From the NCBI RefSeq assembly GCF_002196705.1, contig NZ_NADJ01000010.1, positions 1-45,103 of the forward strand: a stretch of DNA of 45,103 nt, written 5' to 3'. Numbering within the stretch: position 1 is the stretch's first letter; every line of letters begins with the position of its first letter. A program made the translations under genes and the position numbers. The notes under the pieces are model-generated. The model did not search any database. It saw only the letters and a list, made by a program, of their open reading frames with translations, and was not told the DNA's origin. This document shows, one piece after another, positions 8,676-15,377 of this stretch. The DNA is from Desulfosporosinus sp. FKB. GTDB lineage: Bacteria > Bacillota > Desulfitobacteriia > Desulfitobacteriales > Desulfitobacteriaceae.

Positions 8676-8737
8676 ACACTTCCTCTGCTCCAGCTGCATT
8701 TTCTTGAGCAACAGACACGATGGATTCAATACCCTCT
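8676..8737 (-). pseudogene. Fragment of a methyl-accepting chemotaxis protein gene
   Basis: The 62 bp match 9878-9939 of the chemoreceptor gene with two mismatches and in the same orientation. The segment encodes part of the conserved signalling tail ([17 protein letters not shown] region). It has no start or stop and stops abruptly where the kinase fragment begins, so it is one half of a chimeric remnant. Confidence 0.85.
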
Positions 8738-8740
8738 CAA

Positions 8741-9147
8741 AGAACTCGATCGAGCAAACGAAATTATTGCAGAATTTTTATCCTTCGATCAAACAAAGCA
8801 AACCGAGCTGAAACTTCAAAGTCTCAACGACATTCTTACACATCTTTACCCGCTTTTAGAAGCTGACACGTTTACTCAAAACAAGAGAATTCAGTATATC
8901 CCGGAGAAAATCCCGAATGTTGAATTGAATAAAAAGGAAATTACTCAACTAATTTTAAATATAGCTTGGAATGGGCTTGAAGCTATGGAAGAAGGCGGTG
9001 GTCTAACTCTTAAAACTTATTTGCATAATAACCAAGTAGTGCTTGCTATCAAGGATGAGGGTTGATTCCAATTCTCGTGGAACAACTTTTTACATAGTAT
9101 TTCTGATTCCAAACTTAGGGAAAAAGCGGGAAGGCATGATTGCCTAA
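8741..9147 (+). pseudogene. Truncated, internally deleted copy of the 835-3546 histidine kinase gene
   Basis: The sequence is nearly identical to 3012-3546 of the upstream kinase gene, from the end of HisKA through the HATPase domain to the same TAA. It lacks 128 bp: the copy jumps from AAGGATG to ATTCCAA through AGGGTTG (9058-9064). AGGGTTG is present at both deletion ends in the parent (3329-3335 and 3457-3463). The deletion removes the G2/F-box ATP-lid region, shifts the frame and gives an immediate TGA. The N-box Asn codon region is kept, but no functional kinase could be made. There is no start codon or promoter. The junction with the chemoreceptor fragment is at 8738-8740. Confidence 0.92.
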
Positions 9148-9324: not shown

Positions 9325-9591
9325 ATGGCCGGTTTAGGATTCCCTCCTTTTGGCGTACCCCCTTTTGGTGCCCCCCCATTTAATGCTATTCTGTTTGACA
9401 CTTTGCCGATAGGAGCCCGTATAGTAATTGGTACTGATTCGAGCACTTGGGTTGGAAATTACGGCGGCGTTATTGACGGTGTGGCATTTGTGACTAACGC
9501 TCGGTTATTCTCAAATATCGGAAACCAAATTGACGGAATTCAATCCGTAGTGAGAATCCCTGTCCGACAAATAACCTATGTAAGCTATTAA
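9325..9591 (+). CDS. Small protein with Pro-Phe repeats and a beta-rich C-terminal domain
   Basis: 88 residues, starting at ATG 9325 behind GAGAGGAGATAATATTT. The N-terminus is a short repeat of the FPPFG/VPPFG/APPFN type (residues 6-19). The rest is hydrophobic and beta-prone, with GNYGGVIDGVAFVTNARLF and a final VRIPVRQITYVSY. The latter half recalls small LSm/SH3-like barrel proteins of spore formers, for example coat-associated ones, but I cannot name the family. It has its own terminator at 9600. The gene is likely real; the function is unknown. Confidence 0.7.
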   Translation: MAGLGFPPFGVPPFGAPPFNAILFDTLPIGARIVIGTDSSTWVGNYGGVIDGVAFVTNARLFSNIGNQIDGIQSVVRIPVRQITYVSY

Positions 9592-9764: not shown

Positions 9765-11744
9765 TTAAAGCTTAAAAATAGCCACAGCTTTATCCAAGTC
9801 TTCTCCCAACATAACTAAAGTTCTGGCTGCAGCGGCAATTTGCTCTGTTGCGGCACTCAATTCCTCTGTACTTGCGGACACTTCCTCAGCTCCAGCTGCA
9901 TTTTCTTGAGCAACAGACACGATGGATTCAATACTCTCTGAAATGTCACTGACATGGCCGCCAATTTGTTCTGAAGAATGCTTAACGTTTTCCATTTGCT
10001 CACCCATGGACCTTACGATCTCGGAGATTCTTTCAAAGGAATGATTCGTATAATTTACAGCTTGCTCTTGCGCTTCAACTACCGTTTTTGCCTTACTCAT
10101 CTGATCCGATGCTTCTTGAGCACGACTCTGAATGTTGCCAACAATTTTGGCAATTTCTTCAGTTGCTTGTCGAGATCCTTCTGCTAATTTTCTTACCTCA
10201 TCGGCTACAACAGCAAATCCTCGTCCATGTTCCCCAGCACGTGCTGCTTCGATGGCCGCATTGAGAGCAAGCAAATTCGTCTGTTCGGCAATGTTGGAGA
10301 TGGTACTTAAAATGACTCCAACTTCTTGAGATTGTTGGGCTAGATGCTCAATGGTCACAGCAACTTGATGGCTTACTTCTAAGTTTTCCTTCATTTTTAT
10401 AGTTTGGTTTGAAACTGCTTGCATTCCCTCTTCTACGGATGCTTTCGCTAAATTTGCATCGTCAACCGTTTTATTGATCATAGCATTTACATGATCAACT
10501 GCGTGAACGATTTGATTAACCATTTCAACAATTTGTTGTGAGCTCTCAGCTTGATGACTTGCTCCTCCCGCCATTTCTTCTATCGCACGGGCAACCTGTT
10601 CAACGGAAGACGAAGACTCATCAGTGGAAGTACTTAATTCCTGAGCCGAAGCCACTAATTGGCTTGAACTTTGATGCACTTCTGAGACGGTATTTCGCAA
10701 ATTTTCCGTCATAGTTTTTAACGACTGTCCAAGAATACCCAGTTCTCCCATAAAACCGTCACTGATCGTTACGTCTAATTGACCTGTCGCTAAAACGTCA
10801 GTTTGTTCTGCTAAAGTTACAATCGGTTTGGAAATCCGTTTGCTAATAAACCAAGCTAAGATTGCAATAAGTAACGCCACTCCGAAGCCTACTCCTAAAC
10901 TCATGTACAAAAGCTTCGTGGCAAAGCTATAGAATTCACTAACAGGCGCTGTAAGAACCAGATGCCAACCTGTATTGGGAATCGTCGTATAAACCACTTC
11001 TTTGTCAATATTTTCAAAGATATATTCCCCGGTACCTTGTTGATTTTTTAACATATGGGAGCCAATCTGATTAAGGCTTTCAGAATTTGATTTTATAACA
11101 TTGAGTTTTAGAATTTGTGTCTTTTCCGGATGAGCAATAACAAGTCCTGTATTATCAAACAAATATGAATACCCTGTCTGTCCATATTTTGCATTATCAA
11201 CGATTGCTTGAATAGCATCACCTTTAAGACTCATAACAAGTACGGAAGATCCATTGTTACCCTGTAATGGTATAGCTATTGGAAGGATATCATTTTGGGT
11301 ACTCTTGGATACAAGCATCGTGGAAATGACAGGCTTCCCTTTGAGAGCAGATTGAAAATAAGAGCGATCGCTAATCGTTAATGTTTTTCCTGAAGAATTA
11401 ACGGCTTGTCCCTTCTCATCCGCCCAAAGAAGATCCTCCGCGTAAGGAACAGCTTCAGATTCACGTTTTAGATAATCCATAATCTGTGCTTTATCACCTG
11501 TGGCAAACACGGGATTTTTGCCGATGGTATTAAGAACATCCATTTTTTCTTTTAACCAATCGTTTAAAACGTCAGCAGCTAAGGTAACAGTTTGGTTCAT
11601 ATTATGAATGGCGTCCTGAGTCATATTATTTTTACTCGTATAATAATTAAAGGTGCTTAAGCCCAAAAGGGGTATCAGGGAAAGCACAAGAAACCATAGG
11701 ATTAATGTTCCGGCAATTGATTTTAAGAAACTCGTCTTTATCAT
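9765..11744 (-). CDS. Methyl-accepting chemotaxis protein with dCache sensor
   Basis: 659 residues from ATG 11744, which follows GAGAGGG at good spacing; the GTG at 11753 lies within that site. Layout: TM helix (about 10-32), dCache extracytoplasmic sensor (about 38-275), TM helix (about 285-305), HAMP (about 305-360), and a long coiled-coil signalling domain. The hairpin tip (near 490-525) has [20 protein letters not shown], which contacts CheA/CheW. The dCache region has a plausible carboxylate/amine pocket, but the ligand is not predictable. It is monocistronic. A fragment of this gene is present at 8676-8737. Confidence 0.95.
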
Positions 11745-11992
11745 TTTTATCACCCTCTCAGCAATATGTATCCTATAATAGACTCCTAACTATAAGGTTT
11801 ATTTAGTTCTTATTAAGAACCATTCCTTTGTTATTATCTATTTAATAGATACTTGATTTCGACAAATTTCCGAAAATTCCTCTATTAATCTGACTGTAAA
11901 ATGGAGTTTATTTTCACTACCTAGATAAAATACCAAAGACACCTACCCGCTCATCCAAAAAGAGCTGCACGATATTAAGTACTCGATACTTC

Positions 11993-12361
11993 TCACTCAA
12001 ATAAATTAATCTGTTTATGCTCAGAAACCCTGAATATCGCTTTTTCCAGCTTCTCATCGTTTTGAATATTACTATCATCCCGAATTATTTCTTCGAATTC
12101 CAAATACTCATTGCTGCCGATAGCACTGGCTCTAACTTTGAGGATGGAGTTCTGTTTCAGATCGGATAGACAAATCAGTTGAGTGCGATGTTTCTTAGCG
12201 ATTTCAAAAAGCGGGTTGAGTACCGGAATACTGGAATTACCCAAATAGATATTCAATAACTCCCGGTTATACATTAGTTTGGCTATAGACTTTTTGATCT
12301 CTTCTTCACCTTTTTCCTCTAGCATTGACAATGACAAAGCTGTTGAACCAAAAAAAAACAA
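11993..12361 (-). CDS. Hypothetical protein, probably 5'-truncated
   Basis: Up to 122 residues. I do not recognise the family. The sequence is charged and helical with a central hydrophobic strand (RTQLICLSDL) and an acidic C-terminus. The longest frame starts at a TTG inside the arm of the terminator hairpin 12351-12406, so its first residues (MFFFGS) cannot be a true N-terminus. An ATG at 12325 has no ribosome binding site. The likeliest reading is the 3' part of a gene whose beginning has been lost. Confidence 0.4.
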   Translation of the reverse strand: MFFFGSTALSLSMLEEKGEEEIKKSIAKLMYNRELLNIYLGNSSIPVLNPLFEIAKKHRTQLICLSDLKQNSILKVRASAIGSNEYLEFEEIIRDDSNIQNDEKLEKAIFRVSEHKQINLFE

Positions 12362-12406
12362 AGGACTTACCTACTCCTAGAATACAGAAAAGTCCTTTGT
12401 TTTTTT
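12351..12406. terminator. Large bidirectional terminator-like hairpin
   Basis: AAAAAAAACAAAGGACTT and AAGTCCTTTGTTTTTTT form an almost perfect 17-bp stem with a 21-nt loop, with A-run and T-run built into the arms. It would stop transcription on either strand. A 30-codon frame after it (ATG about 12428) is coding-like but weakly supported. Confidence 0.75.
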
Positions 12407-12693
12407 ATCCAGTCAGAAAGGGATTTATGTTTATGAAAAACCCATTTCTCCTGAAGGAGAATGTATGTTGTGTTTTACCAGTTAATAATCCTCGACAAGA
12501 AGCCTCTTTCACTCATTAGTTTTTACTTCGTCTAGAAAATTCCCTCGGTGGATCGTTACAATATATAATATAGCAGCTTTCCGTGACGAACATGTATTCC
12601 TAATATGATTATAACCATTATTTTGCATATTAAACATTTCTTTTAATTTTTAAAGCAAATAGTCAGGATACTTGTCTGGTAAATAAATTCACC

Positions 12694-12722
12694 TTGTCAA
12701 ATTATATATTCTATGCTAAAAT
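12694..12722 (+). promoter_or_regulatory. Promoter of the two-peptide transcript
   Basis: TTGTCA (12694-12699), 17-bp spacer, TAAAAT (12717-12722). Transcription would begin near 12729, just before the ribosome binding site, giving a very short leader. Confidence 0.7.
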
Positions 12723-12748
12723 TAAATTTTGTAAAAGGAGGTGTGCAT

Positions 12749-12853
12749 TTGAGTAAGAAACAGATTACTATGATTCATGAAATTCTCGCTTCAGTTGGGC
12801 TTGAATCTTTAAAAGCTTCTGAGCCAAAGAGAGTCCTCAAAAAAATCTCCTAA
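12749..12853 (+). CDS. 34-residue peptide, first ORF of a small two-ORF transcript
   Basis: TTG start at 12749, 7 nt after an ideal AAAGGAGG (12734-12741). The peptide begins MSKKQITMIHEILASVGLES, continues with mixed charged residues and ends KKIS. It has a basic, amphipathic-helix character, no cysteine, and no obvious signal peptide. Promoter, ribosome binding site, second ORF and terminator follow one another within about 250 bp, which argues for a real expressed unit. I do not recognise the family. It could be a signalling or small regulatory peptide, but nothing in the sequence proves either. Confidence 0.6.
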   Translation: MSKKQITMIHEILASVGLESLKASEPKRVLKKIS

Positions 12854-12864
12854 AAAGGGGCGTG

Positions 12865-12909
12865 ATGAAAATGATGCTAATTTCATATAGCCAAACCTTA
12901 AGTGAGTGA
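12865..12909 (+). CDS. 14-residue peptide, second ORF of the small transcript
   Basis: ATG 12865 follows AAGGGG (12855-12860). The product is MKMMLISYSQTLSE. It starts 11 nt after the first ORF, and its TGA overlaps the first base of the terminator stem, so translation would run into the hairpin. It could be a leader-like peptide, a signalling peptide, or a decayed gene end. The YSQTLSE ending weakly recalls the SQxLD signature of Spo0E-type phosphatases, but the Asp is missing. Confidence 0.4.
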   Translation: MKMMLISYSQTLSE

Positions 12910-12947
12910 AAACGAGTTCCTGATTAAAAATTAGGAACTCGTTTTTT
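12909..12947. terminator. Rho-independent terminator
   Basis: AAAACGAGTTCCT and AGGAACTCGTTTT form a perfect 13-bp stem with an 11-nt loop, followed by TT. It ends the small two-peptide transcript. The minus-strand arm also ends in TTTT, so it could serve the convergent permease gene. Confidence 0.88.
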
Positions 12948-12949
12948 AT

Positions 12950-13024
12950 TTATATCTCTCTTTTCTGCCTTCTTTTCCGCTTTGTTTAATCGCCTCTCTT
13001 CACCGCAATTCTGCTTCTCAACCG
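12950..13024 (-). pseudogene. 3' fragment of Rpn-family nuclease gene (remnant 1)
   Basis: Near-identical over about 40 bp to 15950-15993 of Rpn remnant 2, which encodes EAELRLREAIKLSRKEGR. Here the same frame reads EAELR-stop-REAIKQSGKEGRKER. The homology ends abruptly after AACCG at 13024, four bases before the permease stop codon. The missing 5' half is found on the far side of the permease/LysR pair at 15339-15472, so the gene was split by that pair. Confidence 0.75.
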
Positions 13025-13027
13025 TAA

Positions 13028-14308
13028 CTAACTTCGATATTTAAATGACAAACTGTTTATATTTCTTAGCCTTCTTGTCACCCCGAAACCAACAATAATG
13101 ACCAAAGGGTACAAAATTGCCCAACCGACAAATGGAAATACGGCCGCTGTTGAAAGAAAGGAAAGCCAGCTTATGCGCACTCCCCAATAACTACCTTTTA
13201 GCAACCGGATTCCAGCTGCACAGCCGCCAAGATATGTAAGAATGAAGGTTGCATTTGGTATTTGTATAAGGGTTGTTAAGGATATTGTTCCATTCGCATA
13301 TACATAAAGAACAACAACAAAGCATAGAACAAGAAAGGCAATTCCACCGATTGGCGTACCAAATCGTTTAGACATAACACTCATCCAGCGTGGAGCCTCC
13401 CCCTCTCGGGCCAAGGCGTACGCAAGACGAGAAGCTGCACCCGTATAGGCGATAATAGTCGCAGTACAGATGAACACACCTGTTAATCCAGCAGCCAAAG
13501 CCCCCCATCGCCCGAAAAGCTTACTTATAACCAATACAAGTGAAGCATCTGATCCTGCTGTGTTGTAATTATGGGTCCCAACAGTAGCAAATGCTGTAAG
13601 AAAATACAGTAAGCCAACAATGACAGCAGCAATAGTTACTCCTTTTACCGCCGCACGTTGAGGATCTAAGAATTCTTCGGATAAATGAGAGACCGCCTCC
13701 CACCCAATATAACACCAGAACAAAATAGAAGCAGCCTTGCCAACACTCCACCAACCATGGGGCATGAACGGCCTAAAATTTACATACTCAATATTAGGAA
13801 CAGCTCCGACAATGACGACCATCAGCACAGCAACGATTGCCAGGACAACAGCAATTTGCACTTGACCCGCTACTTTCATGCCGACAACGTTGATAAATAG
13901 CCCAACCGCAAGCATAACTGCTGCCATAGCAACTCGCATACTATTACTCCAGCCCATAGCTGCTGACATATAGCCAGCACCTGTCAAGGCAGCCACTGGG
14001 GCGCCAATAGGTACAGACATGAGAAAAAACCAGCCAACAAGCGATCCAGCTTCCGGCCCAAATGCCTTTGTTACAAAATAGGAAACCCCTCCAGCATTCG
14101 GAAACTTAGATGAAAGCAACCCCATAGACAATGCCAGTGGTAAGATAAGCAAAGTCATAAGCCCCCACGCCAGCAGGGAAGCCGGGCCAGCGATCTCCGC
14201 TGCCAACCCAGGAACAATTAGAACTCCCGATCCTAGTACGGCTCCGATATAGAGAGCTATTGCCTGGGGCAATCCGATAGTACCCTTAAGTCTTCTTTCA
14301 TTACTCAA
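13028..14308 (-). CDS. APC-superfamily amino acid permease/exporter (YjeH-like)
   Basis: About 426 residues from TTG 14308 (behind GGGAG), giving the N-terminus SNERRLKGTIGLPQAIALYI. Longer frames up to 14491 would overlap the divergent LysR gene and its operator. About twelve TM helices are present. The first, GAVLGSGVLIVPG, is the broken helix that binds the amino acid backbone in APC transporters. The closest family I can recall is E. coli YjeH (L-methionine and branched-chain amino acid exporter). The divergent LysR gene probably regulates it through the shared 121-bp intergenic region, which is the usual design of LysR-controlled exporters. Confidence 0.9.
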   Translation of the reverse strand: MSNERRLKGTIGLPQAIALYIGAVLGSGVLIVPGLAAEIAGPASLLAWGLMTLLILPLALSMGLLSSKFPNAGGVSYFVTKAFGPEAGSLVGWFFLMSVPIGAPVAALTGAGYMSAAMGWSNSMRVAMAAVMLAVGLFINVVGMKVAGQVQIAVVLAIVAVLMVVIVGAVPNIEYVNFRPFMPHGWWSVGKAASILFWCYIGWEAVSHLSEEFLDPQRAAVKGVTIAAVIVGLLYFLTAFATVGTHNYNTAGSDASLVLVISKLFGRWGALAAGLTGVFICTATIIAYTGAASRLAYALAREGEAPRWMSVMSKRFGTPIGGIAFLVLCFVVVLYVYANGTISLTTLIQIPNATFILTYLGGCAAGIRLLKGSYWGVRISWLSFLSTAAVFPFVGWAILYPLVIIVGFGVTRRLRNINSLSFKYRS

Positions 14309-14378
14309 TATTCTATCTCCCACTTCACTTGAATTTTCTCTAATAGTACCAGATAATGATATCATCAGGAAAACGGAA

Positions 14379-14403
14379 TATTTCGATGATATGCATCGAA
14401 ATA
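14379..14403. promoter_or_regulatory. Palindromic operator in the permease/LysR divergent region
   Basis: TATTTCGATG and CATCGAAATA form a perfect 10-bp dyad around 5 bp (T-N11-A type core), with an extra CCGATGATA half-site just beyond. It sits between the permease and LysR start codons, as expected for a LysR-family binding site. Confidence 0.75.
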
Positions 14404-14429
14404 ACCGATGATAAAAGGGAGATCTGAAA

Positions 14430-15377
14430 TTGGAAATACGTAATTTATTTACATTTCTCAGTGTAGTCGAAGCTGGTAGTTTTACCCGCACCGCTAATAT
14501 GTTGGGATACGCCCAGTCCAGCGTAACAGCTCAAATTCAAGCACTTGAAGCAGAACTTGAAACGCCTTTATTTGATAGGTTAGGCAAAACCATTGTCCTT
14601 ACCGATGCTGGACAACGACTAATACCTTTCGCCCAAGAAATTACTAAAATGCATGCCTTGGCCAAAGAAGCGGTCCGGTCGGACACTGCTCTTGCCGGTA
14701 CACTGACAATTGGCGCTCCGGAATCGCTGGCAGCCTTTCGCTTGCCCGGTATTATCCGTGAATATAAAAGCAATTATCCAGAAGTTAAAATAACGTTAAA
14801 GCCCGGTGTATGTTGGGAATTACGTGACCTTATCCGTTCAGGAGAACTGGATCTTGCCTTCCTGCTTCAACCGGAGACTGAAGACCGGGAGCTCCACATT
14901 GAAACTCTCGTACACGAAAAAATGGCTCTCATTGCACCACCGGACCATCCCCTTGTCCGTTGTGAGCATGTCGAGCCTGCCAATTTAAAGGACGAAACGA
15001 TACTGCAAACTGAGCAGGGATGTACCTACCGCACATTGTTCGAGCACCATCTTAACAAACACGGAATCTTTCCCAATCCTGACCTTGAGTTCTGGAGCAT
15101 TGAAGCCATTAAAAACTGTGTTATGTCAGGATTAGGCCTATCACTTCTTCCGCTGATCACCGTGCAAAATGAAGTGCGTGAGGGTAAACTCGTTCAGCTT
15201 GCCTGGGATGACAGGGAAGAACGTCTAGCCACCCAGATTGCATATCACAAAAAGAAGTGGCTATCACCAGCATTACATGAATTCTTGCTTCTTGTTGGGC
15301 AGCACGCTGAAAAATGGCGACAGGACTGGGGGTGTAATGCCTTTTCATCTAGTACAAATTTAAACCTAGATAAATAG
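14430..15377 (+). CDS. LysR-family transcriptional regulator
   Basis: 315 residues from TTG 14430, preceded by AAGGGAG at 7-8 nt. The N-terminal winged helix-turn-helix (about 1-60) reads FLSVVEAGSFTRTANMLGYA. The C-terminal periplasmic-binding-like effector domain (about 90-295) is of the CynR/YwfK-like group (LTIGAPESLAAFRLPGII). It is divergent from the permease and probably autoregulated through the dyad at 14379-14403. The last 13 residues (AFSSSTNLNLDK and stop) are encoded by the antisense of an Rpn nuclease remnant, so the C-terminal tail and stop codon were acquired at the insertion junction (15338/15339). Confidence 0.94.
   Translation: MEIRNLFTFLSVVEAGSFTRTANMLGYAQSSVTAQIQALEAELETPLFDRLGKTIVLTDAGQRLIPFAQEITKMHALAKEAVRSDTALAGTLTIGAPESLAAFRLPGIIREYKSNYPEVKITLKPGVCWELRDLIRSGELDLAFLLQPETEDRELHIETLVHEKMALIAPPDHPLVRCEHVEPANLKDETILQTEQGCTYRTLFEHHLNKHGIFPNPDLEFWSIEAIKNCVMSGLGLSLLPLITVQNEVREGKLVQLAWDDREERLATQIAYHKKKWLSPALHEFLLLVGQHAEKWRQDWGCNAFSSSTNLNLDK

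Follow-up and report, generated by a model that had tools for sequence, protein, structure and literature searches.

Within the 45,103-nucleotide stretch of Desulfosporosinus sp. FKB DNA analysed here (the window), about 250 bp hold a promoter, two very short open reading frames and a terminator, which raises the question of what so small a unit encodes and what, if anything, it serves. The initial annotation had described it as a compact free-standing transcript for two tiny peptides, possibly with signalling or regulatory functions, and on direct reading the promoter, the ribosome site, the 34-codon ORF1, the 14-codon ORF2 and the strong terminator all lie where they had been placed. The elements of the unit are as follows.

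12694 to 12722, plus strand: sigma-A-type promoter, TTGTCA-N17-TAAAAT with TG ahead of the -10, read from the sequence
12734 to 12741, plus strand: Shine-Dalgarno sequence (SD) of ORF1, AAAGGAGG, read from the sequence
12749 to 12853, plus strand: ORF1, small-protein family member, TTG start, 34 codons plus stop, MSKKQITMIHEILASVGLESLKASEPKRVLKKIS; coding part 12749-12850 and stop codon 12851-12853, read from the sequence
12852 to 12864, plus strand: SD-like AAAAAGGGG (12852-12860, overlapping the ORF1 stop) and the spacer to ORF2
12865 to 12909, plus strand: ORF2, ATG start, 14 codons plus stop (TGA, 12907-12909), MKMMLISYSQTLSE
12908 to 12946, plus strand: intrinsic terminator, from folding, its stem overlapping the ORF2 stop
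12670 to 12956, plus strand: cassette, the approximate extent common to unrelated sites (about 265-305 bp in most pairs)

The promoter is one of the two top-scoring among 13 promoter-like sites between 11500 and 14500, where shuffling leads one to expect 8.1, and by itself it is therefore not remarkable; a reverse-strand promoter-like site lies at 12735-12708. The terminator hairpin has a folding energy of -22.4 kcal/mol (z -8.2), equalled by none of 200 shuffles, and its overlap with the last stop codon stands as described. The next gene after the unit is an amino-acid permease gene on the minus strand (13028-14491), with a LysR gene also to the right, and a chemotaxis receptor gene (9765-11753, minus strand) lies to the left. 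Because the permease gene is convergent, the unit serves no visible gene, in agreement with the earlier statement that no same-strand gene follows, and the description of a compact free-standing transcription unit is supported. At gathering score Rfam gave no match inside the unit; the Rfam and tRNA searches of the window returned only a partial 16S rRNA, which is the 5' part of a 16S rRNA gene at 1-205 on the minus strand, cut by the window edge.

The surroundings contain several further features of their own. On the minus strand at 11993-12361 a 122-residue frame is related to a 1486-residue protein with no Pfam match, whose gene (L026:1244-5701) lies close to this cassette in D. acididurans; the frame looks like a remnant of that gene. 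At 12352-12406 a perfect inverted repeat of 17 bp is flanked by A and T runs on its two sides and probably acts as a terminator in both directions where this remnant ends. Farther left, the stretch 8680-9060 duplicates a portion of the chemotaxis receptor gene (about 9880-9935) and continues into what appears by eye to be a broken histidine-kinase end. At 9325-9591 there is a frame of 88 residues that begins rich in Pro, Phe and Gly and precedes, also by eye, a G+C-rich inverted repeat.

The nature of ORF1 emerges from its relatives. The family has the core IxxILx[SD][VI]GLEx[LI] followed by a variable polar tail; the window ORF1 fits IxxILxx[VI]GLE near its N-terminus, and the wider member pattern is xxxIxxILxx[VI]GLEx[LI], in which L13, G17, L18 and E19 are invariant in alignments of both 36 and 29 members. 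A nine-sequence ORF1 profile matched in 48 of 73 genomes of the order (E<=0.1), with up to five family matches per genome, and a 36-member profile in 48 of 82 genomes of the class set (E<=0.01). Across the phylum the 36-member profile matched in 35 of 398 genomes and a 29-member profile that included phylum sequences in 45 of 398 (both at E<=0.001). Members are free-standing frames of about 25-60 residues with their own SD. The 20 phylum loci that were read out are all short open frames, 26-70 codons from stop to stop, and by eye each is preceded by a purine-rich stretch; one of them (L141) has no well-spaced start codon. Where family matches fell in frames of more than 100 residues, those inspected either encoded ABC-transporter ATPases (G034, G033) or were open sequence ahead of a small ORF; the nine-sequence profile also matched a 262-residue frame in G011 (E 0.01).

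Three groups can be told apart within the order: a syntenic group A, a group B that is scattered and has a single ORF, and a group C, which is the cassette. Group A is found in Desulfosporosinus and its relatives, mostly between an M18 aminopeptidase/GNAT pair and genes for FMN-reductase, DegV, phosphoglucomutase, DnaJ and ClpB. The neighbours of the other members vary; nine related frames (cluster c0) lie near several scattered members, and among the neighbours identified no partner gene conserved across the family was recognised. The window genome itself has four family matches, namely the window copy (C2), a group A member (C32) and two on C27.

ORF1 is a real gene under purifying, protein-level selection. 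The initial annotation had left selection to be checked, and among 17 syntenic group A copies pN/pS over codons 2-22 is 0.11, as extreme as in none of 100 column shuffles, with off-frame values of 0.90 and 5.57; among nine group C copies it is 0.48, a value reached by 13 of 200 shuffles. AlphaFold predicts a single helix over residues 3-15 with high confidence and an uncertain tail (mean pLDDT 81.5, pTM 0.43). Searches of Pfam, NCBIfam, PHROGs and PADLOC gave no convincing match, with best E-values of 0.053, 0.18 and 0.038 for the first three and nothing up to 1 for PADLOC. Two PDB matches, to the retron Eco8 reverse transcriptase (16 residues, E 0.032) and to spore A-ENA (13 residues, E 0.19), were taken as chance. 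No match was found in phages or plasmids by DNA or by one peptide each, a profile search of viral contigs revealed no relative, and searches of the open-licence literature turned up no paper on the family. The family thus has no name in the libraries searched, and is widespread in the phylum and free-standing.

A search for the two-ORF layout in related genomes had been recommended, and the layout does recur there. A 301-base query gave some match in 15 of 100 genomes, the source genome included (E<=0.01). Ten near-complete copies occur in nine genomes of two bacterial families (G000, G003, G008 with two, G014, G046, G048, G050, G053 and G063), and besides these there are a 3' fragment in G053, a diverged relative in G034 and otherwise short matches. 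The ten copies occupy six sites: one shared by G000, G008 and G014, where the G000 and G008 flanks align over about 2 kb and G014 has only the upstream flank in common; one shared by G046, G048 and G063; and four single-genome sites, one each in G053, G050, G003 and the second copy of G008. Between sites, homology ends sharply at about 265-305 bp in most pairs, with unrelated flanks. From SD to terminator the per-stretch identity among the ten copies is about 0.87-1.00 (0.90 for the SD-to-start stretch of ORF1), against 0.33 and 0.35 outside the unit. The promoter elements have identities of 0.85 (-35) and 0.71 (-10), with TTGTCA in seven copies and a TAnnAT -10 in nine; the site-1 copy of G008 has a poor -35. 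The unit is therefore conserved beyond chance among these copies.

This conservation crosses a family boundary, as G046-G063 belong to another family of the same order. Comparing all 36 pairs of the nine genomes, we found that ORF1 DNA of G003 is 97.1% identical to that of G046/G048, whereas ClpB DNA of the same genomes is 67.4% identical and differs at 71% of four-fold sites. An ORF1 identity reaching 97% alongside a ClpB identity of 67% makes horizontal spread of the cassette probable. Strong nucleotide constraint could partially mimic this signal, a reservation countered by the promoter spacer and the stretch ahead of ORF1, which are likewise alike in several copies. In the aligned copies neither inverted ends nor a convincing target duplication was seen by eye, and a 10-base direct repeat flanking the G003 copy, at unequal distances, was taken as chance. 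Some copies have neighbours that deserve mention. An ORF1-less cassette remnant in G053 (L018 1497-1599, minus strand) carries a shortened terminator stem that differs from those of the other copies and, by eye, still pairs. A DUF3102-cluster gene, its Pfam match coming from the G063 gene, adjoins this remnant and, in the other orientation, the intact G048 and G063 copies. A match to rifampin ADP-ribosyltransferase (Arr-ms) lies beside the G046 cassette (L025 10122-10553, minus strand), with a related frame in the same place in G048.

ORF2 presents a different picture, in which position is kept and the peptide is not. Its 14-codon length is peculiar to the window: relative to the nine other cassette copies, the window lacks one base right after the ATG, and in those copies the same frame is a 12-codon ORF from an internal ATG ATG, MMLISYSQTLSE or near. 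The second site and the 14-codon frame proposed earlier are thus present in the window, while that length is not retained elsewhere. Behind ORF1, group A copies have an ORF of 6-22 codons with an SD ahead of it; this ORF reads M(T/S)(Q/R)ILIL(N/K)CNL... in most Desulfosporosinus-type copies and MSVTQQTM.NLD.FCA.R in three g5 genomes, with unrelated short peptides elsewhere. We rejected ORF2 as a conserved peptide across genera, as these peptides are not alignable by eye. The claim of two tiny peptides accordingly holds for ORF1 and fails for ORF2 as an equal second peptide, whose sequence differs between genera while its position is kept.

The stop of ORF2 keeps its place relative to the terminator. 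When candidate ORFs are ranked by SD, the first ends 1-4 nt ahead of the first G-C pair of the stem at 24 of 26 non-cassette loci, the exceptions being L079 and L092. The cassette is less clear, as among nine copies the stem-abutting frame ranks first only in the window; in the eight other distinct copies a frame of 8-13 codons with an equal SD score and a closer-spaced ATG is ranked ahead of it, ending 7-22 nt before the stem. With such a competitor present, ORF2 of the cassette is less cleanly defined. We also applied a position test that called for an ORF of at least 5 codons with an SD score of at least 4.5 and a stop 1-5 nt before a stem located at least 40 nt behind the gene. It was passed by 34 of 38 family loci, many of them close relatives, against 6 of 193 other open frames (at least 150 codons between stops in the fetched loci, rather than annotated genes), one of these six adjoining the G053 remnant. 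The 38 are those of 54 family loci with a stem called at least 40 nt behind ORF1, leaving out eight with no called stem (including L050, L054 and L071 of group A) and eight with a near stem. Of the four failures, L079 and L092 look by eye like mis-called stems and L090 and L091 have no ORF of this kind. In dinucleotide shuffles of the spacer the arrangement arose 14-61 times in 2000 for eight genus-level examples, which were picked from loci that show it and whose independence is not guaranteed because the loci share ancestry.

Loci with a single ORF tend towards a similar arrangement. The ORF1 stop itself lies -2 to 4 nt from the stem in 13 of 20 one-ORF phylum loci (stem called in 16) and -1 to 2 nt from it in 7 of 13 group B loci (stem called in 8; L090-L092 left out). 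The background consisted of 304 open frames of 200 codons or longer between stops, as opposed to annotated genes; a stem was called for 146 of these, and in 14 of the 146 the stop falls -2 to 6 nt from it. Taken together with the two-ORF loci, these counts indicate that the final stop codon in most cases abuts the terminator; where ORF1 ends early, that stop is seemingly provided by ORF2. Codon-level support is weak: pN/pS of ORF2 is 0.13 in group C, where 68 of 500 shuffles reach a value as extreme and the off-frames give 1.62 and no synonymous change, and 0.55 in group A, where 50 of 300 shuffles do so and the off-frames give 2.81 and 0.79, so that translation of ORF2 is putative. Length differences among group A ORF2s are in whole codons (21 and 22 codons), which fits translation, and we consider it quite probable that ORF2 is translated. 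According to the review PMC7858274, a stop codon near the terminator is general in B. subtilis and is taken there as a sign of uncoupled transcription; on that basis the position of ORF2 may need no special role.

Several other explanations draw on parts of these observations. A dual-function RNA, in which the ORF1 mRNA would also pair with other mRNAs through its 3' half, for example via UCUCCU at the ORF1 stop, would account for the invariance of UCUCCU in the ten full copies, for the higher cassette identity over the last 15 nt of ORF1 (1.00) and the ORF2 region (0.94-0.95) than over the rest of ORF1 (0.85-0.93), and for the low synonymous divergence of the group A ORF2 region (pS 0.20 versus 0.60 in ORF1). 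The ORF1-less G053 remnant likewise keeps most of the 3' half, if not UCUCCU. However, double-sided base-pair changes number 0 of 15 predicted pairs in group A and 0 of 32 in the cassette, among copies that vary little, and folding of the stretch between the two ORFs is no more stable than that of shuffled sequence (z -1.1). A covariance model of the 3' part, run over 73 genomes at E<=0.05, recovered the ten copies and the G053 remnant, and beyond these nothing more than weak matches at the G034 and G012 family loci, the latter about 90 bp behind the G012 ORF1. We consider this dual role unlikely, and a conserved RNA structure is not supported, as neither covariation nor excess folding energy outside the terminator was seen. 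An attenuator in which translation of ORF2 would control termination ahead of a downstream gene can appeal to the ORF2 stop at the stem foot, which would allow a ribosome to block the 5' arm, and to the same-strand genes that follow in group A. That the next frame of at least 70 residues is convergent at nine of ten cassette copies, the window included and G053 being the exception, makes this reading hardly credible.

The mobility of the cassette could instead reflect a small selfish element, MITE-like or addiction-like, with ORF1 serving its upkeep, as six unrelated sites, horizontal spread and sharp homology limits would suggest. Such an element sits poorly with only one or two copies per genome, with aligned copies showing by eye neither terminal inverted repeats nor convincing target duplications, with searches that gave no phage, plasmid or PADLOC match, and with a wider family that is syntenic in Desulfosporosinus and relatives; we regard it as quite unlikely. 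A type I toxin-antitoxin system finds no support, as ORF1 reads as charged and amphipathic rather than as a hydrophobic membrane-spanning toxin. The suggestion in the initial annotation of signalling peptides, here taken as secreted signalling or antimicrobial peptides, gains from the small size, the free-standing unit and the several paralogues per genome with variable tails. Against it, neither ORF1 nor ORF2 reads as having a signal sequence or an AgrD-type Cys core, no recurrent receptor, protease or exporter gene was recognised beside the family among the neighbours identified, and the part conserved across bacterial families is the core, not the tail or a releasable end. A secreted product is for these reasons very unlikely, and specific assignments as a Phr/RRNPP or AgrD peptide find no support, as neither the signal sequence or Cys core nor, among the neighbours identified, the receptor or AgrB that would mark them was seen.

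The explanation we lean towards takes the unit in the window as a genomic copy of a small-protein gene from a family found across the phylum. On this view the gene sits in a self-contained unit, about 270-300 bp long, that has spread horizontally and has one role in trans and another in cis. ORF1 would be expressed from a housekeeping promoter and give a microprotein of the cytoplasm. Its amphipathic helix (IxxILxSVGLE) could dock on a larger partner protein and modulate it in trans, while the variable tail may tune or mark each copy. That ORF1 works as such a docking cytoplasmic microprotein is a tenable possibility, with docking itself a guess from the short predicted amphipathic helix. By translating ORF2, ribosomes would move on past the ORF1 stop as far as the terminator foot, where they might protect the 3' end of the mRNA or modulate the terminator in cis. 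If ORF2 acts in cis by being translated, its peptide is free to change; that it matters in this way rather than through its product is a tentative proposal. The most specific form of this account, in which ORF2 is a cistron selected for translation up to the foot of an intrinsic terminator, with SD, start and stop position kept across genera and a drifting peptide, travelling with a docking-microprotein family that is spread over the phylum and passed from one bacterial family to another as a unit of about 270-300 bp, is doubtful when taken as a whole.

Short proteins that dock on one larger partner are familiar from B. subtilis, where Sda, MciZ and DegQ are modulators of this kind. For ORF1 the comparison would concern only the way of working, with no sequence relationship shown. 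Free-standing small-protein genes as such are already known, for example from PMC11188072, and like the Enterobacteriaceae intergenic microproteins (smORF families) described there, ORF1 is short, intergenic, under purifying selection and simple in predicted structure. Unlike those families, the ORF1 family belongs to another phylum, has a defined invariant core and is accompanied in one order by a position-conserved second ORF. Our analysis adds a small-protein family that has no name in the libraries searched and is found across the sampled families of the phylum. The unusual part is the second ORF, which is conserved in position and not in sequence, and which seems to be retained for the point at which its translation stops and not for its coding content. 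In having its last stop codon a few nucleotides from the stem, the unit resembles the terminators right behind stop codons that PMC7858274 describes for bacteria with runaway transcription. What sets it apart from them is that, where ORF1 stops well short of the stem, the intervening stretch is taken up by a further short ORF that has an SD of its own.
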